A DNA stretch of 64,000 nt from Antedon mediterranea (Eukaryota; Echinodermata; Crinoidea; Comatulida; Antedonidae): assembly GCF_964355755.1 (NCBI RefSeq), contig NC_092675.1, forward strand, positions 22,732,412 through 22,796,411. The letters are read 5' to 3'. A program made the position numbers and the translations under genes. This document shows, piece by piece, positions 3,778-64,000 of this stretch (its first letter is position 1; every line of letters starts with the position of its first letter). The notes under the pieces were generated by a model. That model saw only the letters and a list, made by a program, of their open reading frames with translations. It had not been told where the DNA came from and did not search any database.

Positions 3778-6700
3778 CTAAACATAGTGGTTAAGTACAG
3801 ACTCATACTTTTCTTGATGTCCTGAAACGAGCTCCGGTTCTCCATTCTGTTTGACATAGTCCTGTGTGCAGACAAAAATAAACCTTTCTAAATATACACG
3901 ACAGCAGAAAAGCAAGTACAAATCGTTATTTAAAAAAATAGAAGTATCAATATTATTAAAATTTTAGAGAAATAGAGCATTTTTAATAGATAATTGCCTT
4001 TGCCATATGTACATGTACTTAAATAATTGTTCTTTTGTAAAACAGCTACTTGACTATTTAGTTTATTTATTGTTCCCACTTCACTGAGATATGACGAAGC
4101 ATGGGAATAGATACAGTAATTCATGGCTGGTTGCTTCCCCAAATCCCCTACCACAAAACAACACCCTTCCCCACCAAACAATTACTTAGGTTTAAGCTAA
4201 TTTATATGTCATGTGAAAGAGCAGTCAAACCTAATAGTAATAGGAACTTGGTCCTCAGTTTTATAGCCTCCTCCTGTGTGTCATTTTTATTTAATAATTT
4301 GTGATTGTATGTATTTTAGAAGAAATAAATATATTATTATTATTACCTCATCCAAAATACAGTATAATGTGTTCTAGTATTGGAGATTTAAAACCAACTT
4401 ACAACGTACCAATGTACATATTTAATCATCTTTTCTGTATGGATTTTAAATGGATTAGACACATTTCAACTGTTTTAAAGCGACATTAACATTTAGTTTT
4501 TTTGTTTTTATAAATTTAGGCAAAATGCCAAGGATAAACATAAGCGAATTCATTTACTATCCTGTTCACAAGGCAAACATATACACAACATGCTCTACAT
4601 AAACAAAGTCTTATTACAAGTCTTAGGGAGTGGAGGTGTAATTGTCATTAGAAAAAATCCTGACACATAACAGGACTTGAACCCAGGACCCTTGGATTGG
4701 TAGCCAAGCATCATAACCATCAAGACACAACTCCACTAAACATGTTATTGTATAAAATCATTGGGCATAATTACCTCACATTCTTCTAATGAAGAAACAC
4801 CTTTAGCAATTTTGGCTCCTAATCCAGACTCAAAAGAAGCATACCGTTGCTGTTGAATAATATCAAGAATTTTAATTATTAATAATATCAGTTGGATTCA
4901 AATAAATATATATAAATATATTAATAATATTTGAAAAAATAAAATAAATAAACATTAAATAAAAGATCATCAATAAAAATAAGATAATTAAATAAAAGAG
5001 CAACTATTGATTGGGAGGAGATTGCCAGAGTTTTCAGCATTGAGTTAAGCTCTGTTCACACTATCAAACTTCATGTGACAAAAAAATGTGATGTGCCCAT
5101 ATATGGACATGTATTTCACTACCATATTTTGGCACGTCACACTTTGTTTGTCACATAAAGTTTGATACTGCAGACAGAGCTTATGAATGAGCATGAAAAT
5201 TGTGCATAGAACACATACAGTAACTATAATGCATACGCACCTGAACCATGTTTGCTAGAACACCTTCCTCTTTAATTTTGACGGCACTTCGCAACCCTCG
5301 GGCAAAAGAATCCATTGCCCCAATGTGTGCAATAAACATATCATTAAGGTGAGTTGATTCGCGACGAACTTTAGCATCAAAGTTTAATCCACCAGTGGCA
5401 AGACCACCTTGCTCTAATACCGTCTGAAAAACAAAGAGTAATGTAATATAATTCTTTAAAATAATATATATCGTGCATATTGAATAGTGTAAAAAACAAG
5501 TAGGGCTACAGATCCATTTGTTTAAAAGCCAATTAGGCATAGAAAGTTCTTAGATTAAGTTTATTTGGTAATTAAACTTAGTTTTGGAACAAATTAAGCT
5601 CGATTTTTATACTTCATACCTTCATCACCATGGTACAGTTCTTGACATCCATTGGAAACTGATCTGTATCCCAGCCAAGATCAGGTGATCCAGTGTTGGA
5701 ATCAATGGATCCAAGCATATCACATCTATTTAATAATACACATAACATAATATAAGTCATTGAAAAAAGAAACTGTCTTTATCTACAGCACCAGATATTA
5801 TTTACCTTATTCAGGGGACACCACTATTCAAGTACCTAATCAGGGTGATTGACATCCAAATCAGTTTACAACCTTATCAGGGTACATCCATTATACACCC
5901 CTATAATTCAGGGAACACATCTATTTAAAGGACAACACTATTCAGGGGACACATCTATTCAGGGGACGGGACACTACTATTTAGGAGACACACCTACAGT
6001 CAGGGGAAACATCAATTTATTAAGTGACACTACAATTCAGGGGACACCCCTAATCAACTATTATTGGGATACAGTGGGTATCTTTATGAATAGAGGCTCT
6101 ACCGTATTTACTGGGTATATCACAATAATTTACTTTCACACAGTTGATCTGCACGGATTACTACAGTAAATGGTATGCTATACTTACACTGAGGCCATTA
6201 CTACATCATGCTCATAAGGATGTCCAGCTAGTGTGGTGTGGTTTGGTTCAACATTTATCTTAAAATGCTCTTGCAAACCATATGTACGTAAAAATGCTAT
6301 TACAGTCATGGCATCTATGATATAGATAGACAATTTGAATATAAAAATAATATGCGTTGTTATGGTACTGTAGGGTCACGTGTACAAGATAAAATCTAAC
6401 AAAATTCATTTAAAAATAAAAGTCTGGAAACATAGCAAACAGTATATCACAGGAAATAATTGTTTAGATGGTTTTTATTTGTAACATTCAGATATAAAAT
6501 TTAAGTGGAATAGTATCATCATCATTTGCAAACATATAATTGGCAATACCTTTTTATGAAAATATGTGAAGGTAAATTGTTAATAGTTTGTAATTTCAGA
6601 ATTAGTACTAATTAATTATAGGGTTAGAAAATATCCAATCAGTGGCGCATCTACAGTAAGTCTCAGAAGTATTAAATTGTGTATAAGCTAGGGTGCAGGA

Positions 6701-9700
6701 TCATGTTGCAACAGAGACTTTGAAAAATGTTGAGTTCCCTAAAATTGCACCTGTGTACTCAAAATATAGGTATAGTATTTGTTCATAAAGTTTAAAATTG
6801 CAGCTCTGTGTTAACTAGAAGCAAAAATTGCATGCAAAAGGTGCATAAAAAGCATCACACTATCCCCAAATATAGCTCTAATGCATTTAGCACAAGCTTG
6901 GTTCCCACTAGGATGTATGGCAAGGACGTAAACGCAACACAAGCGTGTTGACCAATGACAAGCGACAGTTAGCATAATCCATCATTTGTGATTTGTCAAC
7001 TCCTTGTGTTGCATCTTTAGTGAGAACCAAGCATTAAAGAGAATACTGCATAAATAGAAAACAAAAATGTAATGATAATAAAACCAACCATAGTCATATT
7101 GATGTCTTGCTGGTTCTTTTGGTTTAGGCTCTATCAGCAGCTGGCCTTTAAAACCAATCTTCTCCTTGTATTCTAATAACAAATGAAATTAATTATTTGT
7201 TTTTTTGTTGTTGTTTGTGTGGTTAACATAATTTTAAAAAAATCAGGGTCCTGTTGTCCACAGCAGTGAAGGTGAATAATGGACCACTTAAGATGCAATG
7301 CATGTGGATATTGAAAGATGCAATGCATGTGGACACTGAGCGATGCAATGCATGTGGACACTGAGTGATGCAATGCATGTTGACACTGAGCGATGCAATG
7401 CATGTGGACACTGAGTGATGCAATGCATGTGGACACTGAAAGATGCAATGCATGTGGACACTGAGTGATGCAATGCATGTGGACACTGAGCGATGCAATG
7501 CATGTGGACACTGAGTGATGCAATGCATGTGGACACTGAGTGATGCAATGCATGTGAACACTGAGTGATGCAATGTATGTGGACACTGAGCGATGCAATG
7601 CATGTGAACACTGAGTGATGCAATGCATGTGGACACTGAGCGATGCAATGCATGTGGACACTGAAAGATGCAATGCATGTGGACACTGAAAGATGCAATG
7701 TATGTGGACACTGAGTGATGCAATGCATGTGAACACTGAAAGATGCAATGCATGTGAACACTGAGCGATGCAATGTATGTGGATATTGAAAGATGCAATG
7801 CATGTGGACACTGAGAGATGCAATGCATGTTGACACTGAGCGATGCAATGCATGTGGACACTGAGCGATGCAATGCATGTGGACACTGAAAGATGCAATG
7901 CATGTGAACACTGAAAGATGCAATGCATGTGGACACTGAGCGATGCAATGCATGTGGACACTGAGCGATGCAATGCATGTGGACACTGAGCGATGCAATG
8001 CATGTGGACACTGAAAGATGCAATGCATGTGAACACTGAAAGATGCAATGCATGTGGACACTGAGCGATGCAATGCATGTGGACACTGAGCGATGCAATG
8101 CATGTGGACACTGAGTGATGCAATGCATGTGGACACTGAGCGATGCAATGCATGTGGACACTGAAAGATGCAATGCATGTGGACACTGAAAGATGCAATG
8201 TATGTGGACACTGAGTGATGCAATGCATGTGAACACTGAGCGATGCAATGCATGTGGACACTGAAAGATGCAATGCATGTGGACACTGATGCAATGTATG
8301 TGGACACTTAAAGATGCAATGCATGTGGACACGGAAAGATGCAATGCATGTGGACACTGAGCGATGCAATGCATGTGGACACTGAGCGATGCAATGCATG
8401 TGGACAGTGAGCGATGCAATGCATGTGGACACTGATGCAATGTATGTGGACACTTAAAGATGCAATGCATGTGGACACGGAAAGATGCAATGCATGTGGA
8501 CACTGAGCGATGCAATGCATGTGGACACTGAGCGATGCAATGCATGTGAACACTGAGTGATGCAATGTATGTGGACACTTAAAGATGCAATGCATGTGGA
8601 CACTGAGCGATGCAATGCATGTGGACACTGAGCGATGCAATGCATGTGGACACTGAGCGATGCAATGCATGTGGACACTGAGCGATGCAATGCATGTGGA
8701 CACTGAGTGATGCAATGCATGTGGACACTGAGTGATGCAATGCATGTGAACACTGAGTGATGCAATGTATGTGGACACTTAAAGATGCAATGCATGTGGA
8801 CACTGAGCGATGCAATGCATGTGGACACTGAGCGATGCAATGCATGTGGACACTGAGTGATGCAATGCATGTGGACACTGAGCGATGCAATGCATGTGGA
8901 CACTGAGTGATGCAATGCATGTGGACACTGAGTGATGCAATGCATGTGGACACTGAGTGATGCAATGCATGTGGACACTGAAAGATGCAATGCATGTGAA
9001 CACTGAAAGATGCAATGCATGTGAACACTGAAAGATGCAATGCATGTGAACACTGAAAGATGCAATGCATGTGGACACTGAGCGATGCAATGCATGTGGA
9101 CACTGAGTGATGCAATGCATGTGGACACTGAGTGATGCAATGCATGTGGACACTGAGCGATGCAATGCATGTGGACACTGAGCGATGCAATGCATGTGGA
9201 CACTGAGCGATGCAATGCATGTGGACACTGAGCGATGCAATGCATGTGGACACTGAGCGATGCAATGCATGTGGACACTGAGCGATGCAATGCATGTGGA
9301 CACTGAGTGATGCAATGCATGTGAACACTGAAAGATGCAATGCATGTTGACACTGAGCGATGCAATGCATGTGGACACTGAAAGATGCAATGCATGTGGA
9401 CACTGAAAGATGCAATGCATGTGAACACTGAAAGATGCAATGCATGTGAACACTGAGCGATGCAATGCATGTGGACACTGAAAGATGCAATGCATGTGGA
9501 CACTGAAAGATGCAATGCATGTGGACACTGAAAGATGGAATGCATGTGAACACTGAAAGATGCAATGCATGTGAACACTGAAAGATGCAATGCATGTTGA
9601 CACTGAGCGATGCAATGCATGTGGACACTGAAAGATTCAATGCATGTGGACACTGAAAGATGCAATGCATGTGGACACTGAGCGATGCAATGTATGTGGA

Positions 9701-12700
9701 CACTGAGCGATGCAATGCATGTTGACACTGAGCGATGCAATGCATGTGGACACTGAGTGATGCAATGTATGTGGATATTGAAAGATGCAATGCATGTGAA
9801 CACTGAGCGATGCAATGCATGTGGACACTGAGCGATGCAATGTATGTGGATATTGAAAGATGCAATGCATGTTGACACTGAGCGATGCAATGCATGTGGA
9901 CACTGAGCGATGCAATGCATGTGGACACTGAGCGATGCAATGCATGTGGACACTGAGTGATGCAATGCATGTGGACACTGAAAGATGCAATGCATGTGGA
10001 CACTGAGAGATACAATGCATGTGGACACTGAGAGATGCAATGCATGTTGACACTGAGCGATGCAATGCATGTGGACACTGAGCGATGCAATGCATGTGGA
10101 CACTGAGTGATGCAATGCATGTGAACACTGAAAGATGCAATGCATGTGGACACTGAGCGATGCAATGCATGTGGACACTGAAAGATGCAATTCAAAATAA
10201 ATCAACAATTGATTTATTTTTTATTCATTTATGTTAAAAATACTGATCTGTCAAGAAATCAATCAAGAAAGCCTCTAAAATGTACTGCAGTTTTTCACCT
10301 ACCTACAACCATCTTTAGTATATTAGCCATGTTTTGAAGCTCAGAACGAATATCCGTGTTTAAGATAGTAAAGTAACCTTCTCGTCCACCCCAAAAAACT
10401 ACAGAAAAAAAACATGTTTTTTATTTCATATACAGTATTATTTTTAGAAAAACACAATTATTTCATTTTCTTTTAATATATTATGTGAAAAAGGAAATTG
10501 ATGTGTGCTGATGCTGCCTATTCATTCATGAGTAGTGTACTTCCAATTTAGAAATCAATTTCGGACAATTAGCAGAGGTATGTGTTTAATTTGATCATTA
10601 TTGTACCAAAGTTTTCTGCATTCATCTTCTTGCCTATTTCTAGGCCCTTCTTGATCTGAGCAGCAGCATAAGCAACCACATGCGCATCAGGGTTCGTCAT
10701 AGCACCATTCATATACCTAAAATTGTATAAAAAAACCATGACAATTATAAACAAGTACTAAAAAGGCAGTGTTAGCCAGTGGCAACCTAAACATATGCAG
10801 ATTGATTGGTGTGCAGTATCAGGTGGTTGTAATGTTATATTAATACAGTCAACTCTTCCAATACCAGACACCTTTGGGCTGGCTTAATATGTCTGGATAT
10901 CTGGAAAGTCTGGTCTCGGAATGTAATTTGGGACATTTTAGACCTCAAGAAAAGTCTGGTTTTAGAAGAGTTTCCGGTTTTCAGAGAGTCCGGTATTGAG
11001 AGAGTTGACTGTAACACCTATTATAGTTTTTCCAGTTTACTTCAATAATAGATGGGTAGATAGATTCACATTCAATTTTTATTGTCAAGCCCGAGTTGTA
11101 ACTTTTTCAACTTCACTTCTTAAACCTTAAGCCTTGGATAACATAAGCATGCTAAAATTATATAAAGTAGGTTATCTTTCATGTAAATGGCAAGTTGTTC
11201 CCTGTTGGATGCTAATGAAATTTAAAAAAAAAATCAATGTACACATCAACTTCCATCAACGGTCCATTACAAACATCAATTGTTTTGTTTCTAGTCTGGC
11301 ACAACACAAAGTTTAACATATTTTAGCAAGATTTACCTTGGATTTGCAAATAAATTGCATGTGTTCCATAACAACTTGACTCCAGTCTGTTCCATTAATT
11401 CTAAGGCAAGATCTGTTATCTCATCAAGATTACGATTGGTTTCTTCAAGGGTCTCGCCTTCAGGTGCAACATCTCTAAAAATAATCAACTTTCTTTATAC
11501 CTGGATTTTATGTATGAACAAAACAATATCATTCTTGATGGTAAACAAAACATTACTACAGTAAATTAAGATTTTAAGAGAATGTTTCAGTCCATGTTTT
11601 TTATTTTTTTTTCACCATATTTAATGAGGGTGATCCATCTAGCAATTGCTGATCATTAGGGACTCTCAGAGGTTCAAAAGACAAACAAATACACATGATG
11701 TTCTACATAAACAAAGTCTTATTACAAGTCTTTGAGAGTGAAGTTTGTTCTTAGAAAAAATCATGACATGTGATAGAACTCGAACCCAGTACCCTTGGAG
11801 TGGTAGCCAAGCATCATAATCATATGTTTAGGTTGAGCATTTAAAAAATGTGTGTGTCGTGCAGAACATGTAAATTGTGACGAGTTCAAATCCAGTTTGT
11901 TACCTGTCATGGAATGGGGATCCAGTCAAGTCGCCCCATCGCAAAGTCGCCCCATACAAAGTCGCCCCTTACACAGTCGCCCCATCGCAAAGTCGCCCCA
12001 AAACAAAGTCGCCCCGGCACAGTCGCCCCATCGCAAAGTCGCCCCATTACAAAGTCGCCCCATCGCAAAGTCGCCCCATCGCAAAGTCGCCCCAACGCAA
12101 AGTCGCCCCATTGCAAAGTCGCCCCAAAACGTTAAAAAATAGTTTACAAGTGCGTAAAATGTTGCAATGATACACAAAATAACACAGAACGTGTAGGCAT
12201 AGGAGAAGCCCCGCCATGTAGTCTCAGGTCACACGTTCGGCACGCACCCCCATCAGAGAGGAAGCCCCCGACTAATCACTCCGCGGTCGCACTAACGTGC
12301 TAGCTCACCATGAGAGGGAAACCCCCGTAATTACTCCGCCGTTGCCGTTGTCGCGCTCTACAACGCACCATCTGAAGATGGGGAAACCCCGCCGGAGTTT
12401 TTATCGGTTTTAATCATATTGGGTGCGTTTGATATCGATTGCGTTGTTACTTTGGTCGCGCTAAATGTCGTATACATTATAATGTTTATCCTATTATATA
12501 CATAATTTGTGTTTAAATTTTTATTTTACAGGTTTTAATGGAGTGATGTGCTTTTTAAAAATCATTTAAAAAAATAGTCCCTAAAAAGATTATCCCTGAT
12601 TTATAGTTTCGAAAATGTTAATTTAATATGATTTTAAAATTAGTTACCAGAGCCACAATTACGAATCTTTCTTCAACCTACGCGTGGATACCAGCTAATT

Positions 12701-15700
12701 TTTTAGGATAATATAATAAATGTATAAATGTGTAGTAGGCCTTCGTATAGATTTACAGTAGTTAAAACAATAACAGTGTTGTAAGACAATAAGTGTTATA
12801 GGCTACTTATTGATCATTTTGCATTTATTGACAAGTTATGTGTCTTAATTTTATAATGACTTTTCAAAATGAAGAAAAAAAAAGGGGATTTCATCGCCGA
12901 TGTGATTGTTTTACATGCAGGTATTAGTAAAATTAAAACGCGACATTTTGACCATGGAAAAACCATCGTACAGTATCGTGTGCGTGTTTTTTAAAAAGGG
13001 GAATCCCCGACGGTCAGCAGAAAGACGTAGCAGCTGTGAGGAAACAGATACCAGAAGGCGCAGCTCCGATTGGATTCAGAGAATGTTTCAGATGGCGAGT
13101 CGCCTTTTATTCAACAGCACAATGATCATTTTACTGAAGAAATTCTTTTCAATCCTTTTGGTTATAGAACATTCTAATTATAATGCCTAATAAATATCCT
13201 CTCATATCGGGTGTTTATTTAATTTAATTTTAAATTAAACAAGACAGTGAAGAGGCACGGAATAATACGTACACGGACGTACGACAAATACACACACGCA
13301 CGTTATCATTTACGACATAGTGGTGATATGATGCAATTTTATAATGGATATAATGATGGGATTGCCTTTCCAGGAGTCTTACAATCAATGTTCACTGTAA
13401 TACTATGTATATAATACTTAATAGTAAACTGAATGTTTATAAATAAATTGTTTTACGTAATTTGTTGCATATAAAATAAAAGACACAGACGTAGCCTACG
13501 TTTCCTATAAAATATTTCACATTTAAATAAGTACGTATGTACTGTTAAATGACATTATGCTGGATAATACTATATCTTAAACTATGTTTACAAATTGTCA
13601 TTTTTTAAGCCACACATCTTTCTCATAATACTGACCTGTAAAATAAAATAAAAAATCAATTATTAATATAGGCCTAATAATAATAATAAATATTCATCGA
13701 CCAAAGTAAAAATAATCTAGATCGTATAACATCATTTTATCGCGACCGATTTCGAACGCGACTGATATCATCGTAAAACTCCGGCGGGGTTTCCCCATCT
13801 TCAGATGGTGCGTTGTAGAGTGCGACAAAGGCAACGGCGGAGTAATTACGGGGGTTTCCCTCTCATGGTAAGCTAGCACGTTAGTGCGACCGCGGAGTGC
13901 GACCGCGGAGTGATTAGTCGGGGCTTCCTCTCTGATATGGGGGTGCGTGCCGATCGTGTGACCACCTGAGACTACATGGCGGGGCTTCCCCTTTTATGCC
14001 TACACGTTCTGTGTTATTTTGTGTATCATTGCAACATTTTACGCACTTGTAAACTATTTTTTAACGTTTTGGGGCGACTTTGCGATAGGGCGACTTTGTG
14101 ATGGGGCGACTTTGCGATGGAGCGACTTTGCGTTGGGGCGACTTTGCGATGGGGCGACTTTGCGATAGGGCGACTATGTCGGGGCGACTTTGTTTTGGGG
14201 CGACTTTGCGATGGGGCGACTGTGTAAGGGGCGACTTTGTATGGGGCGACTTTGCGATGGGGCGACTTGACTAGCATCCATGGAATGTCCAGTACTTGAT
14301 CCCTAGTTTGCTGAAGAATTCAAAGGCTGCTCTCAATCGTCGTTTCGCATTTTCCATGCTATCTGAACCTGAAATTAAATAAAACTACTGTTACTACAAG
14401 GAATATATGTAAAAGTGTTTTTGCTTGTCTTGTGGTTGTTCATGTTACATTTATTCTCAGTTTTTACAATATTACTTATCTTTATTTGTCATACATACAT
14501 GCATGAAATGGAATAAAATAAATATCAATACCAAAGTATAAATAAATATAAAAAAAGAAAAAAAATCATAAATAAAACAAAAACAGACTTACCATCATCC
14601 CATGGTCTTTTGATTGTTGGGAATCCAAAAGGATCTGCACCCACTCCTCTAAATGTATGCCAGAAACAAACTGAAAACCGTAACCACTCTGCCATTGTTC
14701 TACCATTTATTACCTAGAGATTAAAACGTTTTATATCTTAATTTCTACCTCACTATTTTGATAAAATTGATTATCATTAATTGTGGACCAGCCCGCTGGT
14801 AACGATAATTGAATGTGTAAAAAGGGAAAGAAACCTTGAATTAAAGGTGTATTGTCCTATTGATTAATTCTAAAAAAATAAAAAAAAAAAGATTTAGAAA
14901 AAAAGTGGGTCATTTTGAAGTATTATAATAGTTATTAATTTTCACAAAAAATTAGTCGAAAAAAAAAATGATTTAACTGAAATATAGACGTTTTTTTGTT
15001 AAAAAAATAACTTTGACTTCCAGTCAAAGTTTTCGATCAAAACATATCTCATAGTGCAACACGCTTGTTTGGTTACCCTGTATGCAAAATCATAAGACTT
15101 CCTTGCGATCTATGTGAAAACACCTTCTCAACCGTGACGAGTTGTAAACAATCCTAATTAGCATCATGCATAATGCATACTCGTGGTTTAAAATCTATGT
15201 TTACTTTCGCTCGATACGGATTTCCAGAAGATATGTAATCGAATAAATTTACCTATTAATTACGTAAACTTGTTGTTTTTGGCTTGAATTTTCATCTTGA
15301 AGTGAATAACTTTAATATTACTTTGATTTAAATTTAGAACATTTTGACCTTGATTTTTTGTGTTTCAAGGGACAATACATCTGGTTATTTATTAATTATT
15401 TATCTGAGAGAAAGTTTTAGCAGGAGAGGAAACATTTTACCTATTATTATAAGGCCTATCACAAATAGTTTGATTTCACGAGGAATGTCATTGCACAATG
15501 CATGATGGGAAGGGTTTGAGTCACGACAATGTGTACAAACAAAACAAATCATTTTGCGTTGTGACATACGTTTGCTCCCAAACCCTTCCCATCATGTGTT
15601 GCGCACCCTATTTTCGATAAACCTTATTATAGGCCTACCTCAGTTGCATTGTAATGTTTAAACACCATTACTTCGTCAGCACCTGCATCTGGTTTATACT

Positions 15701-16660
15701 GGATATTACCAATGCCTATACAAATATATATATATATAATGAAATAAGAACATATAAAAAGATAAAGTTAAAAGGAGTTTTAAAATAGGTACAATAATAT
15801 AGCCTAGCCTATAGACTATTGTTGCAAATAGTGAGTAGCCGATCATTATTCCTCAACCAAGATTAGATAGATGTCTGCTAGCGGCGCGCATTATGGACCC
15901 CTTACATCTATGGTGTCAGATGAAATTGGTCGGCCTTCAAATCGGTCGCGTTAAAATCAACATCCGGTATTTTGTATGGAGCGCCGCTAGATACGTGTTT
16001 CATCATATTAGTTTTGTTTGAAAACATTAGAATAAAAAACAAACACCATTATGAAAGACACAGATCCTTCTCCGATACCTGTAAAATAAAAAATGTAATA
16101 TTATTGATAATAAATATTTACTAACCAAATAAAAAATATCCACATAAATTAAATAATCTAGGCTAGTTCCTAAAAAATATCAATAAAATCTATAAAAACA
16201 TAGAAAAGTATATATCGCTCACATGTATCCCGCTCCATACAAAGTATCACGACTGCAATAAAATGCGACCGATTTCAAACGCGACCGCTAGTATAAAAGA
16301 CCGAAAAAGTTGATTTGATCGCGACCGATATCTTAACTAGGATATATGCCTAACATAGTAACAGCTAGCTAGGCTAGGCCCTAGCCTAGGCCTAGATAAT
16401 TTCAGGGCCTACTACTTAGCTACTAGTACTACTAGCCTAGGCTATTCGACTATGCTAGGCAGCTAGTTAGGCCAGGCCTAGCCTATGCGTTGCTAGTTTT
16501 TATGTTTAGTTGTTCCCGACGCGACATTAGTTAGGCCTACCTAGCCTAGCTAGGCCTAGATGTTAGTAGGCCCACCTTTAAAATAATCTTTCTGGTTTCC
16601 ATTGCTAGAAGCTCCTGTACCCCTAGCTTTCTTGGATTTTGGTGGAGCAAAAGCAGACAT
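3778..16660 (-). CDS. xylA: Xylose isomerase, 13 exons, exon 4 interrupted by a transposon
   Basis: Interconverts D-xylose and D-xylulose. Exons (high to low): 16576-16660, 15639-15715, 14593-14713, 14279-14368 plus 11904-11916 (exon 4, split), 11337-11474, 10607-10716, 10303-10398, 7089-7172, 6188-6314, 5620-5725, 5241-5423, 4775-4849, 3778-3861. Phases agree at every junction and give 459 codons when the insertion and its 9-bp duplicate are removed, typical of class II enzymes. Catalytic and metal residues are all visible: H124 and D127 (FHDRD), E255/K257 (IEPKPKEP), E291/H294 (EPNH), D319 (GSIDSNTG), D330/D332 (GWDTDQ), D362 ([13 protein letters not shown]). ATG 16660 is chosen because it alone joins exon 2 in frame. 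As assembled, translation enters the insertion at residue 125 and stops after two foreign codons, so this haplotype should be null. Introns exclude bacterial contamination. Confidence 0.95.
4565..4740 (-). mobile_element. tRNA-derived SINE, family A copy 1
   Basis: On the minus strand a tRNA-like head with A-box-like TGATGGTTATGATGC and B-box GGTTCAAGTCC is followed by a body ending in a segment that includes AAGACTTTGTTTATGTAGA. The same head and body recur at 11680-11825. It lies in intron 12 of the xylose isomerase gene. Confidence 0.75.
5047..5182. mobile_element. Palindromic MITE, family 1 copy 1
   Basis: Terminal inverted repeats AAGCTCTGTTCACACTATC and its complement near 5155-5182 enclose a short core with the CCATATATGGACATG stretch. 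Related copies are at 41053-41200, 49032-49179 and 52993-53139. It lies in intron 11 of the isomerase gene. Confidence 0.8.
5805..6060. repeat. Degenerate minisatellite, unit about 18-20 bp
   Basis: Repeated variants of ATTCAGGGGACACATCT run through intron 9 of the isomerase gene. Unit spacing is irregular and copies are diverged, so the array looks old. An ORF across it is only a by-product of the repeat. Confidence 0.7.
6894..7032. mobile_element. Palindromic MITE, family 2 copy 1
   Basis: Ends AAGCTTGGTTCCCACTAG and the inverted GTGAGAACCAAGC bracket a core with ACGCAACACAAGCG and TGACCAATGACAAGCG. Copies of the same family lie at 37983-38134, 38228-38393 and 42745-42895. This copy is in intron 8 of the isomerase gene. 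Confidence 0.75.
7290..10192. repeat. Minisatellite of a 25-bp unit, about 115 copies
   Basis: The unit contains GATGCAATGCATGTGGACAC and a variable four-base end (GAGC, GAGT, GAAA, rarely GAGA). The array fills most of intron 7 of the isomerase gene (7173-10302). Because 25 is not a multiple of three and the unit lacks stops on the minus strand, long open frames appear in all three minus frames; they are artefacts. Short interruptions with ACACTTAAAGATG and ACACGGAAAGATG recur at 8308-8340, 8450-8485, 8579 and 8779, showing segmental duplication within the array. Units ending GAGT create TGATGCAAT. Confidence 0.97.
10846..11011. mobile_element. pogo/Tigger-like MITE with TA flanks
   Basis: Begins CAGTCAACTCTTCCAATAC and ends GGTATTGAGAGAGTTGACTG, with TA on both sides. 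Terminal CAGT, TA target duplication and 166-bp length fit a non-autonomous pogo-type element. It lies in intron 5 of the isomerase gene. Confidence 0.78.
11165..11240 (+). mobile_element. SINE tail fragment, family E
   Basis: The stretch ATGGCAAGTTGTTCCCTGTT with the following GGATGCTAATGAAA and A-run matches the 3' tail of the SINE at 45784-46012. Only the tail is seen here, in intron 5 of the isomerase gene. Confidence 0.5.
11680..11825 (-). mobile_element. tRNA-derived SINE, family A copy 2
   Basis: Second copy of the 4565-4740 element with B-box GGTTCGAGTTC and the same body motif AAGACTTTGTTTATGTAGA. The 5' end of the head is truncated. It lies in intron 4 of the isomerase gene, about 80 bp from the split exon 4. 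Confidence 0.72.
11904..11916 (-). other. Downstream piece of xylose isomerase exon 4
   Basis: Minus strand reads CATTCCATGACAG followed by GTAAC. It encodes the end of the active-site FHDR motif and carries the exon's splice donor. The first nine bases duplicate the end of the upstream piece at 14279-14368. Confidence 0.88.
11908..11916. repeat. Left 9-bp target-site duplication
   Basis: CATGGAATG on the plus strand, identical to 14279-14287. It flanks the foldback element and is part of isomerase exon 4. Confidence 0.85.
11931..12132. repeat. Left outer-domain tandem repeats of the foldback element
   Basis: About 13 units starting GTCGCCCC followed by six to eight variable bases (ATCGCAAA, ATACAAA, TTACACA, AAAACAAA and similar). 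The order of variants partly mirrors the right arm, as expected of inverted copies. Confidence 0.9.
14063..14272. repeat. Right outer-domain tandem repeats of the foldback element
   Basis: Inverted counterpart of the left array, units TTTGCGATGGGGCGAC and variants. One unit reads TATGTCGGGGCGAC where the left arm has GGCACAGTCGCCCC complement, so the arms are not identical and have diverged since they formed. Confidence 0.9.
14279..14287. repeat. Right 9-bp target-site duplication
   Basis: CATGGAATG, identical to 11908-11916. Confidence 0.85.
14843..15382. mobile_element. Putative 540-bp DNA element with short inverted ends
   Basis: Left end AAAGGTGTATTGTCC and right end GGGACAATACATCT are inverted versions of each other, next to TTAA on the left. 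A similar end, GGGACAATACATCTTTAAAG, stands alone at 46569-46588. Internal sequence is A-rich with no coding capacity. It lies in intron 2 of the isomerase gene. Confidence 0.55.
15491..15604. repeat. Hairpin-forming inverted repeat
   Basis: Arms 15491-15520 and 15575-15604, sharing ATGATGGGAAGGGTTTG, face each other around a 54-bp spacer in intron 2 of the isomerase gene. Probably a small MITE; no clear target duplication was seen. Confidence 0.7.
15870..16340. mobile_element. Remnant resembling the foldback element's inner region
   Basis: GCTAGCGGCGC near 15878 is inverted at GCGCCGCTAG near 15981. The following AATAAA-rich sequence and CGCGACCGATATC near 16320 resemble 13630-13770 inside the foldback element (GCGACCGATTTCGAACGCGA). 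It may be a related, older insertion in intron 1 of the isomerase gene. Confidence 0.4.
16350..16570. repeat. CTAG/AGGCCT-rich low-complexity tract
   Basis: Dense runs of GCTAG, GGCCTAG and CCTAGGCC in intron 1 of the isomerase gene, close to the first exon. A similar tract sits in intron 1 of ELP3 at 56690-56840. Confidence 0.8.
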
Positions 16661-17154
16661 TATTGTTCTTTTGTTGCTATTTATTTTGCTACAAATAACC
16701 TGTTTTTTTCCAGTAGAAAAGAGGCGTATCACGGTGGTACGACCGACCGATCATCTTCACTGGATCAGTAAACACACTCACAACCAATCAAAATGCTTTC
16801 ATAAATCCCAAGGTACCCCCATAAACGTGACTACCTAGCTACTAGCTAGCTACTGTCACTATTTTCTCGTTTTGAGACTTAAATGTCAACGATTTCATAA
16901 ATTTATCAATATATACGTGTACATTTTTATTATACAATAAACAACATTTTTTTTTCTATAGGAAATTAAATAGAGTGTGTATAATTCATCATAGTTTTAG
17001 GGAGTGTGCTCATTTCATAGAATGGTTATGGGAGCCTAGCTCTCTAGTTCGCTCAGCTCTATGTTGTCTCCATGCTTACGGAACGCCGACATGTTGTTGT
17101 CAAAGCAGCAGTAGTAGTAATTGCTCTGAACCAATTTGAAATGTGTTCTTCACA
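16661..17154. promoter_or_regulatory. Divergent promoter region, isomerase (-) and TIR gene (+)
   Basis: The two start codons lie 494 bp apart on opposite strands. I see no clear TATA box or CpG island; the TATATACGTGTACA stretch near 16908 is the only TATA-like sequence. 5' UTRs of both genes must lie here unless further non-coding exons exist. Shared regulation is an inference from geometry. Confidence 0.45.
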
Positions 17155-20100
17155 ATGGTAGATAATGTGCAAGCAACTGGGAAAAACGGGTATGCTACAT
17201 CAGAATGTGCAGAAACACAAGGACATCCTAAGACTATAACTGCTGTTGCTGGCCGACCAAAAGAAGACCTGAACGTGACACTGACAGGTAAAAACACAGA
17301 TACTGCTGCTGCTGCTGAACATACACCACCAACAACAGGCTCAAGCCCAGCAAACCAGGAAGTACAAGCAGTTTCTCAAGAAGGGATGAATGAACGAGGC
17401 GAAGGTGTTCAAGAGTTCAACAAGGAAGGCAAATTAACAACAATATGCAAAGGTGAAACCAATACAAATTCAGAAAAAATAATCCAGTCAGTTGAAAAAA
17501 AGGAATTGAAATTTGTAATAGATCAGGACTCGACTGCAGCACCAAAGAATCTTTCTAAAAACAAAGTTAATAAACAATCAAAACAGAATACTATGAAAAT
17601 ATCACAAAAGAAAATAAAGAAGGGTATCTTCATTTCATACTCTCCCAATGGTGGCTATGAGGAACGGAAGTTTGTTGCAGATACAGTTAAACAATTTAAA
17701 GAAAATAGTTTAAGTGAAGACATTTGGTTTGACAAAGATGAAAAGAATACAAATAGTCCTGCATGGTTTTCACAGCGCATGGAGGCATCTGAGAGATGCC
17801 GTGCCTCAGTTTGTTTCTTATCTGAAAGTTATTTCCAATGTCCTGTATCGATATATGAAGCAAGATGCCTTTTAGAAAGACGGCGTGGAGATAAACCGCC
17901 AAGAATATTCGCAGTTCTGTTAATAGATTCAATTAGCATTCCAAATGGGTATACTGAACTGATGGTTAATAGCATTAATTTAACAGGGTCTTATGCTAGT
18001 TTGAGTTTAGCCGAGAAATCTTCACTTGTGATTGGTAAATTTATGGAAGATCTTGAAGCTTGTGCTTCTGTATTTGCAGCAAATACCCCAATTACCCCAG
18101 AAATGGACTTTACAGAAGATTACAAACAAAAGAAGCTATGTCGATGGACTGCAAATGACGTACAGAGCTGGTTATACTACCTAGGAATTCGGGAATTTTT
18201 TCAGCAAAGCTTCGCAGAACAGGCAGTTGATGGATTTTTATTGATGTCATTGATAGATTCTGATTTATCTGAACATCTTGCAATAGACAGTCGTGTCGTA
18301 CGAAAAAAACTACTTCAGCAGATTTTTCTCACGCTTGAGAAGGAACAACGTTTGCAAGATAACTGGCATTTACGTTTACGCACACATCGCTCTCGTGCTG
18401 AGATTGTTTATCTCATTTATGATCCAGCTGATGTGAGGCTTGCGCAAAATTTTAAACAAGATCTACAGCGCAAGAATCTACAGGTAATTAATACAGTACA
18501 CATTACGACGTCCGTATTTGTCCGCATAAAATAATTATTTTAATAAAAAAAACAAAAGTTGAGGGTGATTACACTAAAAACAGCTGCTAGTCCATAATTA
18601 TTATAATAGTTCATTCTTATATAGCGCATATAAGCAAGCTCTCAATGCGCTGAAACATTATTACCTCAGTCATTTTTTTGGATCAAACACGTATGGAAAC
18701 ATACTTCCATAATGCATCGAGTAATCAGCGCAAAGTTCTGTCTTGATCTAACCGGGTACCCATTTATACACCTGGGTGGAGAGAGGCAAACGTAAGTAAA
18801 GTATCTCGCCTAAGGATACAAGCAATGCGGCAAGAGTTGGATTCGAACCTCGGTCTCACGATCAGTAGTCCAACACCCTGCGCCACACGCCCTCGCATAA
18901 TAATAACTGATCCTATTATTATATAATAGCTGAGGTGGTGTCTGGGGTAACGGTTGATAGGTTCTAACTGTATTTATTAAATACTTGTACATTTTCGGGT
19001 AGTGGCATGTTGGAATTTATTAAACAAATCTTTTTTTTTAATAACAGTGTGGTCTATACAAATTGAATGAATTCAAATTTCACCACCATAAATGACATGA
19101 CAATGAACTCTTGTTTGTTTAAGTTTGAATGACTTTTTTTAGACAATATGTATACTGCCTTCCACTTTGAAGACTAAATGGGTCAGATTGTATTTTGTGT
19201 ATGCTATTGCTATGGTGTTCAACTATCTAATTCTTTGATAAACAATCATTACAGTGGTTTACACTGTGTACAGTCCATTGCATTTATCTATGCAACAATA
19301 CACAAATGAGGACTAACACTAACAGTACGAATTGTCTCAGGGCCGAATCGTCCTGGAACCTAAACAACCAATACAAAGTAATGTTTTCGTGTTTTGAACA
19401 CTTTACTAGTACTACTTCATTCATTGTATGTTGTACAATAAAACACACAAGTATACAATACACAGAGCATTGTATCATTTTCAGGTTGGGTTTTTCATTG
19501 ATTACTTTGTAGTTAATAATTGCCATCTCATCATCAATTATTCACCAACTGGTTGTTATGTTGTACTGTGGATTAAGAATAACAATTGTAGGCCATAATC
19601 TTTTGTGTATGCACTGACTGTACTGTGACTTACTGTAGATAATAGACCCTATTGTGAGGCACATCAAAGGTGTCTTGGAACTCCAAAGAAACATTCAACC
19701 TCAATGTTAGAATACTGATTACATTGTAAAGACCTACTATTGTTTTAGCTCATGAAGAATATAGACTCGCCTCACAACACAAAAAAATCCAAACATAGTG
19801 CAATCCCCATCCACCATATTACTGATGTTACAGATTAACATTTTGTCAATCAAAATTCTCATGATTTAAAATTTACTCATTGGATCAACTAACTTAAAAC
19901 TAATAGTATTTAATTATAGTTTCACTTCACAAAAGAATTTCCTGAAAATTTACATTGTGCATACAAATTCACAAACAGAACACATTCTGTATGGATTTTT
20001 TTAAATTTCAATCATTATTTACTGAAGTAACTATAAAATCTGCCAGTGCCAGACAATGAATTTTTATTTCAAATTGACCTGTTTATTTTGACTTTTTATA

Positions 20101-22142
20101 AGTGAAATCATTTTTTTTTTCAACGGAAGTGAATAACGTTATTAAAAATGCAGAATAACCTATTCAAAGTTTGATTTTTAATCTCATATTTTTGGGAACA
20201 ATGCATCTTTAATATTAACACTTACTTATTGCAGATTTAATTTAATGTTTTAAACTAAACATTTAATACTTAGGTTTGATTTTACCATTTGTTACTCTTT
20301 CAGGTTTTAACTCACGATAAGTTGGGTCAGTCTAAAGAGGAATTTCTTCAAATCAATGGCCGACTGCTGGCTCAAGCAAAGAACGTTATTGTTCTTCTCA
20401 CAGAAGCATCGGTCTTGTCTCCATTTGTCTTCCATGAAGTGCTCTTTGCTGACTGGCTTGGCAAAACATTAGTTACAGTAATGTTCAAGAATGTATGGAG
20501 TAGAATGCGGCCATCTTTAAAAGCTGTATTAGGTTAGTTTGTATTGAACCCTAGTACTTGAAGTTAGTTTTAATTACTACTTTAATACTACTATACAGTA
20601 CTTTTTATTAATGTACTTTTTGGAAAGAAAATTGCTATTTAAATTAATCATGTGCTAACGCGACTCTACAGCTCACTATGTCAGTCGGTAAACATTACCT
20701 CAAATTTGCGCAGGCGACTGCAGTCATGTATATGGCCTTTTTTTCAAAGATTCTTTAAAGATTCTCTACTGGACTCTGGAAACAAAAACTTCTGTTACTT
20801 TTAGGTTATATTACTGCAGACGCAATTTTAAACTAATAAAAAAAGGGACAATCAAAAACTCAAACTGTATCTTTCCTTCTTATCTTAAAATCCATAGGGG
20901 AATGTTCAGCTATTGACTTTGAGACAAAGATGTATTGCGATGGTATGGACATACTTCACCACCATATCAAACCTTTAAGGAAAGTTCCTGGTGTTGTATT
21001 AGCACAGAGTTACTTGAATAGGATAAGTGAAGGCATAAAACCACTTCAGATTTTAGCAGTATCAACCAGTAAGTATAGTAGAATAATTGACTCCTGTTAC
21101 TATCATTTTGTTGAATTTGTACTTTTATATTGATATTGATTCATAATCATGTCGCATTTATTTGGTATTTGCTGTTCAGCATCATCGATATTGCTGTGTT
21201 ACTGGAATACAATATAAACAGATTTAATCAAACATATGATATACACACAATGAATTGATTTGACATTACTTGTTTCTCTAGGTCAGTAGTCATTGCAAAG
21301 TGAAAGCTCTCTTATGTGAAATGATGCGATATTAATTGACTGCTTGACTTGAACTTAACTCTTATAAGGTCTTCAACAGTACATTTCCCCCAACATATGA
21401 TGACAAAAAATACAGTAAGCTTTCCCAATACTGTAACACACTTGGGCTGAGGTGGCACAATAATTTCTGGTTTTCGGAGTACAATTTTTTGTCTACAGAG
21501 TCTTCTATTATCTGCATTTCTTGGTCTTACTGTAATTGTATTGATTAGCTATACTATTATGTTTTTGCAATCAAGTTTTACCACATACTAAGGGATACTA
21601 TGCTAATTAATTCAAATGGAATAATTTTCTCAGATGATGGCTGGTCAACTGATGCTCCACAGCCAAAGGTGTTCATCAGCTACCAATGGGACATGCAGAA
21701 TAAGGTGCAAGAAATCAAGCGGATTTTAGAAGCCAATGGCATGCCATGCTGGTCTGACATCACTCCAACAATGACACGAGGAAGCAGCAGTATCAGTTCT
21801 AGAAGCAGCTTGATATCATTGGCAACATCTTCTGAATCCCTTCAGAGTCACATTCAGCGCAACATGAAAGCTGCTCAGATTGTTCTCTGCTGTGTCACTC
21901 CACGGTATCTCCAATCAGATAATTGCGCAAAAGATCTTGTTCTTGCAGATCAATTACAAAAACCTATTATACCGGTTTTACTGCGGTTTATTGCATGGCC
22001 CCCCGACACTGGTCCGTCTCAAGTGAAAAAGATTTTATCACAGACAAGTCAGATTGACCTCAGCAATGACAAACTTTACAAACAGAACTTTCATTTACTC
22101 TTAGATCGGATTCGTCGACAACTTACTCAGCAGAAGACATAG
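17155..22142 (+). CDS. TIR-SAM-TIR-TIR protein, 4 exons, 745 aa
   Basis: Exons 17155-18483, 20304-20532, 20898-21068 and 21634-22142 join in phase. ATG 17155 has A at -3 and G at +4; the open frame extends upstream only through a GTG. Residues 1-155 are polar and probably disordered. TIR-like domain 1 is about 157-291 (GIFISYS), SAM about 329-394 (RWTANDVQSWL), TIR 2 about 414-520, split by an intron (AEIVYLIYDPAD), and TIR 3 about 587-722 (KVFISYQWD). The Glu position that is catalytic in NAD-cleaving TIRs appears kept in domain 1 (E235, YEARC) and domain 2 (E488, FHEVLFA), while domain 3 has Asp (D677, AKDLVLA). No signal peptide or membrane segment, so cytosolic. It resembles SARM1 in pairing SAM with TIR but has no ARM repeats and two extra TIRs. 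A role in NAD-based or innate immune signalling is inferred. Confidence 0.88.
18590..18896 (-). mobile_element. tRNA-derived SINE, family B copy 1
   Basis: The minus strand begins GCGAGGGCGTGTGGCGCAGG, with B-box GGTTCGAATCC, a central domain including GATACTTTACTTACGTTTGC, and a tail with GCGCTATATAAG. Both Pol III boxes look intact. It lies in intron 1 of the TIR gene. A second copy in the other orientation is at 44085-44372. Confidence 0.85.
20657..20738. repeat. Dispersed repeat R, copy 1
   Basis: Shares CTACAGCTCACTATGTC, GTCGGTAAA, CGACTGCAG and CATGTATATGGCC with 23775-23852. It lies in intron 2 of the TIR gene. Class unknown. Confidence 0.7.
21412..21536. mobile_element. Possible degenerate pogo-like MITE
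   Basis: Starts CAGTAAGC next to TA and ends GGTCTTACTG followed by TA, with inverted ends over about eight bases. The interior is diverged. It lies in intron 3 of the TIR gene. Confidence 0.35.
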
Positions 22143-57535: not shown

Positions 57536-57610
57536 CCTCTCGCACCCAAAGCGATGAACCCGGGGCCTCTCGCACCCAAAGCGAGAATCAAGCCACTAGA
57601 CCAACGAGCC
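57536..57610 (-). pseudogene. tRNA-Pro remnant, array unit 3
   Basis: A 5' half joined to a second copy of the anticodon-arm segment; the T stem 3' side and acceptor are missing. Confidence 0.8.
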
Positions 57611-63853: not shown

Positions 63854-64000
63854 AATATATTACAAAGCGAAAGAATATGGAAATTACTGGTCTGTGCCGA
63901 GCTTAATACATGTAGAATAAAGACGTTGTTCAATGCTAATTCGTCAAACGTTACTTATTTCACTTTTTTTGGTAAATTATCTAAAAATCACTTAAAAAAC

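Follow-up and report, generated by a model that had tools for sequence, protein, structure and literature searches.

Foldback Elements and Transposons in Exons

Foldback transposons have been described in echinoderms, nematodes and flies. TU elements of sea urchin are echinoderm foldbacks with tandem repeats of about 15 bp in the outer arms and an 8-bp target-site duplication. Galileo, a foldback of the P superfamily, duplicates 7 bp. Introner-type insertions carry a target-site duplication inside an exon, and SOS splicing, by which transposons can be removed from mRNAs, requires paired inverted repeats in the transcript. A 1983 report on the TU elements is cited in the paper on Tetris of Drosophila virilis, which places the majority of foldbacks, as it seems and with exceptions, in Mutator (PMC4079207). 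Tm1 is a Mutator/foldback family of root-knot nematodes: its duplications are mostly 9 bp (8-10 bp for 45 of the 53 elements), the 7-bp ends are asymmetric and lie outside the inverted repeat, tandem repeats are of 13-15 bp, and there are non-coding members; the Tm1 paper also names Galileo, as a foldback whose transposase is of P type (PMC3169594).

A Xylose Isomerase Gene Interrupted in Exon 4

The stretch of DNA analysed here, 64,000 nucleotides (64 kb) from the crinoid Antedon mediterranea and called the window below, contains a xylose isomerase gene that runs along its minus strand, from 16660 to 3778. It consists of 13 exons with start and stop codons present: exon 1 with the start codon (16576..16660), exon 2 (15639..15715), exon 3 (14593..14713), exon 4 in two parts described below, exon 5 (11337..11474), exon 6 (10607..10716), exon 7 (10303..10398), exon 8 (7089..7172), exon 9 (6188..6314), exon 10 (5620..5725), exon 11 (5241..5423), exon 12 (4775..4849), and exon 13 with the stop codon (3778..3861). 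AG precedes each of exons 2-13, and GT follows each of exons 1-12. Exon 4 is split by a 2,362-bp insert at 11917-14278. Its upstream 90 nt, at 14279..14368, end in the target-site duplication, and its last 4 nt, at 11904..11907, lie past the second duplicate and are followed by the donor GTAACA. A perfect 9-bp duplication (9/9 bases), CATGGAATG on the forward strand, directly abuts both ends of the insert, at 11908..11916 and 14279..14287. This 9-mer occurs twice on the forward strand and not at all on the reverse strand across the 64 kb, so the duplication reported in an earlier note on this DNA is right to the base and has no other copies in the window.

The same note had claimed that removal of the element and one duplicate gives back a 94-nt exon 4, and indeed both the phase and the WTFHDRD motif are exactly restored. 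With exon 4 joined at the duplicate, the coding sequence is an open reading frame of 1,380 nt, namely 459 codons and a stop, for a protein of 459 aa. Since inverted arms and the 9-bp duplication are both observed, the insert can be called a foldback transposon inside a coding exon, as had been proposed. The apparent insert might come from misassembly of a long palindrome, but this leaves the duplication and the restored frame unaccounted for.

The restored protein is a xylose isomerase of full length: over residues 26-459 it reaches 652.4 bits with the model TIGR02630 (xylose isomerase A; curated cutoff 533.25), and its best relative of solved structure is 1a0d (E 1.6e-152). Among the best 120 of 8000 scored candidates, the top match is isoform X2 of another crinoid, Anneissia japonica (P0001; Crinoidea, Comatulida), which is 88-89% identical over the shared part. 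That isoform, of 414 aa, has a different N-terminus and no equivalent of exons 1-2; it is uninterrupted at the insertion point, unlike the insert allele, and shows the same WTFHDRD motif as the restored protein. In an alignment of 11 sequences the other echinoderms are 68-75% identical to the restored protein, so that the protein by itself points to a crinoid as the very probable host, and WTFHDRD or WSFHDRD runs uninterrupted in 10 of 10 aligned relatives. That all catalytic residues are kept, as the first reading of the locus held, agrees with what is seen when conserved columns, not single catalytic residues, are scored over the stretch in common with the Anneissia protein: the consensus residue is present in 93 of the 93 columns that are invariant across the 119 other homologues. 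Of the columns conserved at 95%, the restored protein deviates at 3 of 164 and Anneissia at 1 of 163. When each of the 120 homologues is left out in turn and counted likewise, 106 have as many deviations as the restored protein or fewer, although the comparators, being the closest matches (best 120 of 8000), favour slow-evolving sequences and bias the count against the query. One change in the restored protein, P356T, is unusual. On these counts, constraint on the gene may be slightly relaxed.

Anatomy and Coding Content of the Element

The element (11917..14278), which is apparently non-autonomous, has the structure of a foldback: long inverted repeats with internal tandem repeats are arranged round a loop, and the whole is bordered by the target-site duplication. 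The left arm, 478 bp at 11924..12401 on the forward strand, has 16-bp tandem repeats of GTCGCCCC at 11928-12126 (12.7 copies) and then an inner arm. The loop of 1,373 bp (12402..13774) has no coding recognised in the Pfam scan of element ORFs. The right arm, 498 bp at 13775..14272 on the minus strand, consists of an inner arm followed by 16-bp tandem repeats at 14070-14268 (12.7 copies). The outermost 6-7 bases of the element are not inverted: in the arm alignment, the left terminus is GGGATCC at 11917..11923 on the forward strand, and the right terminus, at 14273..14278 on the minus strand, is GATGCT when read inwards from the element end. Segment 11924-12201 is 96% complementary to 13995-14272, and segment 12277-12401 is 98% complementary to 13775-13899, with the outermost 93 arm bases identical between the two arms. 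Aligned without the termini, the arms match at 461 of 477 aligned bases and differ by 16 substitutions, and the alignment opens 5 gaps; the mismatch count becomes 20/483 if the non-inverted termini are taken in. These differences are uneven, with 11 substitutions per 203 aligned bases in the tandem part and 5 per 274, plus the 5 gap openings, in the inner part. Because of this unevenness, and because the two arms of one Tm1 element average 93.15% identity in the published account (PMC3169594), arm identity was dropped as a clock for the insertion.

Over the whole element there are 31 ORFs of at least 40 aa. None of the 30 that were scanned against Pfam (all but a 42-aa ORF at 14174-14302) reaches the cutoff. 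The sub-threshold matches, namely CoV_S1_C (E 0.04; 14.5 bits, cutoff 27.1), Extensin_1, matched by five ORFs that derive from the repeats (E 0.00019 at best; 21.7 bits, cutoff 105), LRRNT, DUF6643, BKRF4 and GST_C_4, were dismissed as real coding and read as low complexity or chance. No Rfam family reaches threshold over 11000-15000, and no further copy of the element is found within the window. Exact element patterns gave 0 matches in viral_contigs and genome_contigs, from which little was to be expected since they hold viral and prokaryotic records. With peptides read from the tandem repeats, one search matched a single protein, P0121 (96 aa; 54 bits, E 9.2e-9), and another matched none. 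P0121 comes from a 1,214-bp metagenome contig, and its periodicity is similar by eye, as judged on the protein alone; we note it as a lead only.

Reading Frame, Splicing and Age of the Break

What would a transcript of the interrupted gene encode? The earlier note expected the frame to stop two codons past the junction, and the product of the insert-bearing frame is indeed 126 aa long and ends in ...WTFHGC. Skipping of exon 4 shifts the frame, as was also expected, and gives a product of 113 aa. Early stops are reached too when exons 3 and 4 or exons 4 and 5 are dropped together (58 and 96 aa). The scope of the search for splice rescue was the junctions that restore the empty site (n=10) and donors of exon 4 joined to exon 5. 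None of the 10 restoring offsets is bordered by GT-AG, GC-AG or AT-AC. Exon 4, read as far as the new stop, has nine GT or GC dinucleotides, of which two are in phase with exon 5: joining from CTA/GTCAAG creates a stop, and joining from CAA/GTACTG loses YWTFHDR. As YWTFHDR includes what we take to be the catalytic histidine, cryptic-donor products should be inactive. The claim that no suitable splice sites flank the element stands for these dinucleotides, but the RNA route is not thereby closed, for SOS splicing has been described (PMC13247085). On the insert haplotype codon 126 is the last of the frame, which breaks off within FHDRD, the motif of the active site, and the allele would therefore most likely be null.

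It was further held that the 12 other exons are open and that the break is recent. The 1,380 coding bases show no further lesion, nor do the 12 pairs of splice sites, and this absence supports a probably recent insertion, as an upper bound on divergence only. Under neutral decay, zero lesions correspond to a divergence since loss of at most 0.012-0.019 per site (1.2-1.9%) at the 5% level, by a simple Poisson count with assumed indel-to-substitution ratios of 0.05-0.15; the bound presumes neutrality and is uninformative should the allele persist in heterozygotes.

Fate of the Interrupted Allele

Probably, the locus is best understood as follows. A transposase encoded elsewhere, which we infer to be of Mutator type, would move the foldback element in trans; the element would have entered a functional xylose isomerase gene of crinoid type, at exon 4, duplicating 9 bp, and the resulting allele would most likely be null. 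We hold this account with good confidence. Within it, an insertion that segregates, as the earlier note proposed, is plausible and likelier than one that is fixed. Fixed loss of the enzyme, or takeover by an intact paralogue, is a sub-case that overlaps with this account, and we consider it a minority possibility: the window has only one xylose isomerase locus, but the gene bears no other disabling change, and any loss would therefore be recent.

More doubtful, and absent from the earlier note, is the idea that the hairpin is removed from the mRNA by SOS splicing, that is, by excision and ligation by RTCB, so that the allele still makes enzyme. According to a 2026 review, SOS splicing removes transposons from metazoan mRNAs, with RTCB as the ligase (PMC13247085); the primary paper that it cites is PMC12779559. 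At this locus, the RNA of exon 4 plus the element has a predicted folding energy of -1274.5 kcal/mol, far more stable than five mononucleotide shuffles (-597 to -636). In the predicted fold the two end regions are joined by 516 pairs, of which a few involve exon bases, and an unbroken 95-bp helix begins 4-5 nt inside the element ends. One inner arm folded alone shows no excess stability (z 0.64; 147 of 200 shuffles equal or exceed its stability). Pairing inverted repeats, as a substrate of SOS splicing should have, are seen in silico only, and a predicted hairpin, however extreme, is no evidence that SOS splicing occurs at the locus; besides, splicing at exon 4 must give an exact junction to keep the coding frame. 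We would put a little lower still the fuller proposition that the allele may be functional through spliceosome-independent removal marked by the hairpin, with echinoderms using SOS splicing in nature.

Somewhat less probable again, and likewise absent from that note, is that the insert is reversible in the soma or germ line, the matching 9-bp ends permitting precise DNA excision and mosaic tissues. Muta1, a Mutator-like element with 8-9-bp duplications, left about 90% of yeast revertants without the element and one duplicate, and therefore alleles with such duplications can revert (PMC5225508). However, Muta1 is a different element studied in a heterologous assay, and no transposase is found in the insert. 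That the element is, or is becoming, an ordinarily spliced, introner-like intron is very improbable, since its target-site duplication within an exon is of the introner type but the restoring offsets all lack splice-site dinucleotides and the usable in-phase cryptic donor would delete the active-site segment.

In the preferred reading, of a foldback insertion that most likely makes a null allele, the locus is a clean, base-exact interruption by a transposon of a deeply conserved metabolic gene in assembled sequence. It is to be noted that where a gene is called lost on the strength of one haplotype, a single insertion allele can be the cause. Are hairpin transposons in animal exons null alleles, or are they repaired at the RNA or DNA level? 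The locus offers a natural test of this question, and its extreme predicted hairpin makes it a good one for SOS splicing. If the SOS-splicing reading were true, foldback transposons would be tolerated in exons of conserved genes at little cost.

Comparison with Known Foldback Systems

In the partial library of literature at hand, whose silence is no proof of absence, no crinoid element of foldback or Mutator type is named in a title, and papers containing both xylose isomerase and echinoderm were three, on octopus ink, marine enzymes and microplastic-degrading bacteria; the other searches on the enzyme brought up only papers in which xylose isomerase does not occur. The P superfamily of Galileo was set aside, as the duplication is 9 bp and not 7 bp and no transposase domain appears in 30 ORFs, although a missing domain by itself would not exclude a non-autonomous member. 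For Mutator, a duplication of 8-10 bp is the mark, and the present one, 9 bp in a single insertion, falls within it; no MULE transposase is seen in the element, as 0 of the 30 scanned ORFs (31 total) reach a Pfam cutoff. The element is thus a putative member of the superfamily, by the duplication length and the sub-terminal inverted repeats only.

With the TU elements, the present element shares an echinoderm host and tandem repeats in the outer arms. Tetris of Drosophila virilis lives in another host and has arms of up to 1,735 bp, but by description it is likewise a long-armed foldback with internal tandem repeats, 8-10-bp duplications and no conserved ORFs (PMC4079207). As compared with Tm1, whose repeats of 13-15 bp are of other sequence than the 16-bp repeats here, and some of whose members carry a MULE transposase whereas none is found in the scanned ORFs of the element, the likeness extends to the 9-bp duplication, the short non-inverted ends, the tandem-repeat arms, the imperfect identity of the arms and the non-coding state (PMC3169594). 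By analogy, then, the element appears to resemble most the Mutator-type foldbacks such as Tm1, and its insertion, a foldback breaking a conserved gene, is genuine, ordinary in kind and in a good state of preservation.

Repeats and Neighboring Genes around the Xylose Isomerase Gene

The xylose isomerase gene, which runs on the minus strand from 16660 to 3778, is adjoined by an ORF with TIR and SAM domains (17140-18531), and a second ORF with a TIR domain lies nearby (21549-22139), both on the opposite strand. Intron 7 of the gene is mostly taken up by a minisatellite at 7292-10191, whose 25-bp unit is repeated in 116.3 copies with 92% matches. Another tandem array, a satellite with a unit of 220/440 bp, starts at 57555 and continues past the window end at 64000; its units translate as peptides, and the single ORF scanned in it gave no Pfam match. 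By eye, a palindromic stretch that also contains AGTCGCCCC is seen at 2590-2730 and is perhaps tRNA-related. Also seen by eye is a SINE-like pair, at 4590-4740 and 11700-11840, whose copies are related to each other and one of which lies in the intron adjoining the foldback insertion (11917-14278, in exon 4).

Short and imperfect inverted repeats in intron 1 (15928-16329) possibly represent a small element. A 23-bp motif in the same intron (16263-16285) resembles, with three mismatches, positions 13740-13762 in the loop between the inverted arms of the foldback element, and such a match was found in none of 100 shuffles. As for the 16-bp tandem repeats in those arms (12.7 copies per arm), the peptide that they encode is similar to P0121, a metagenome protein of 96 aa (E = 9.2e-9), and this similarity may perhaps be a sign of a related element elsewhere.
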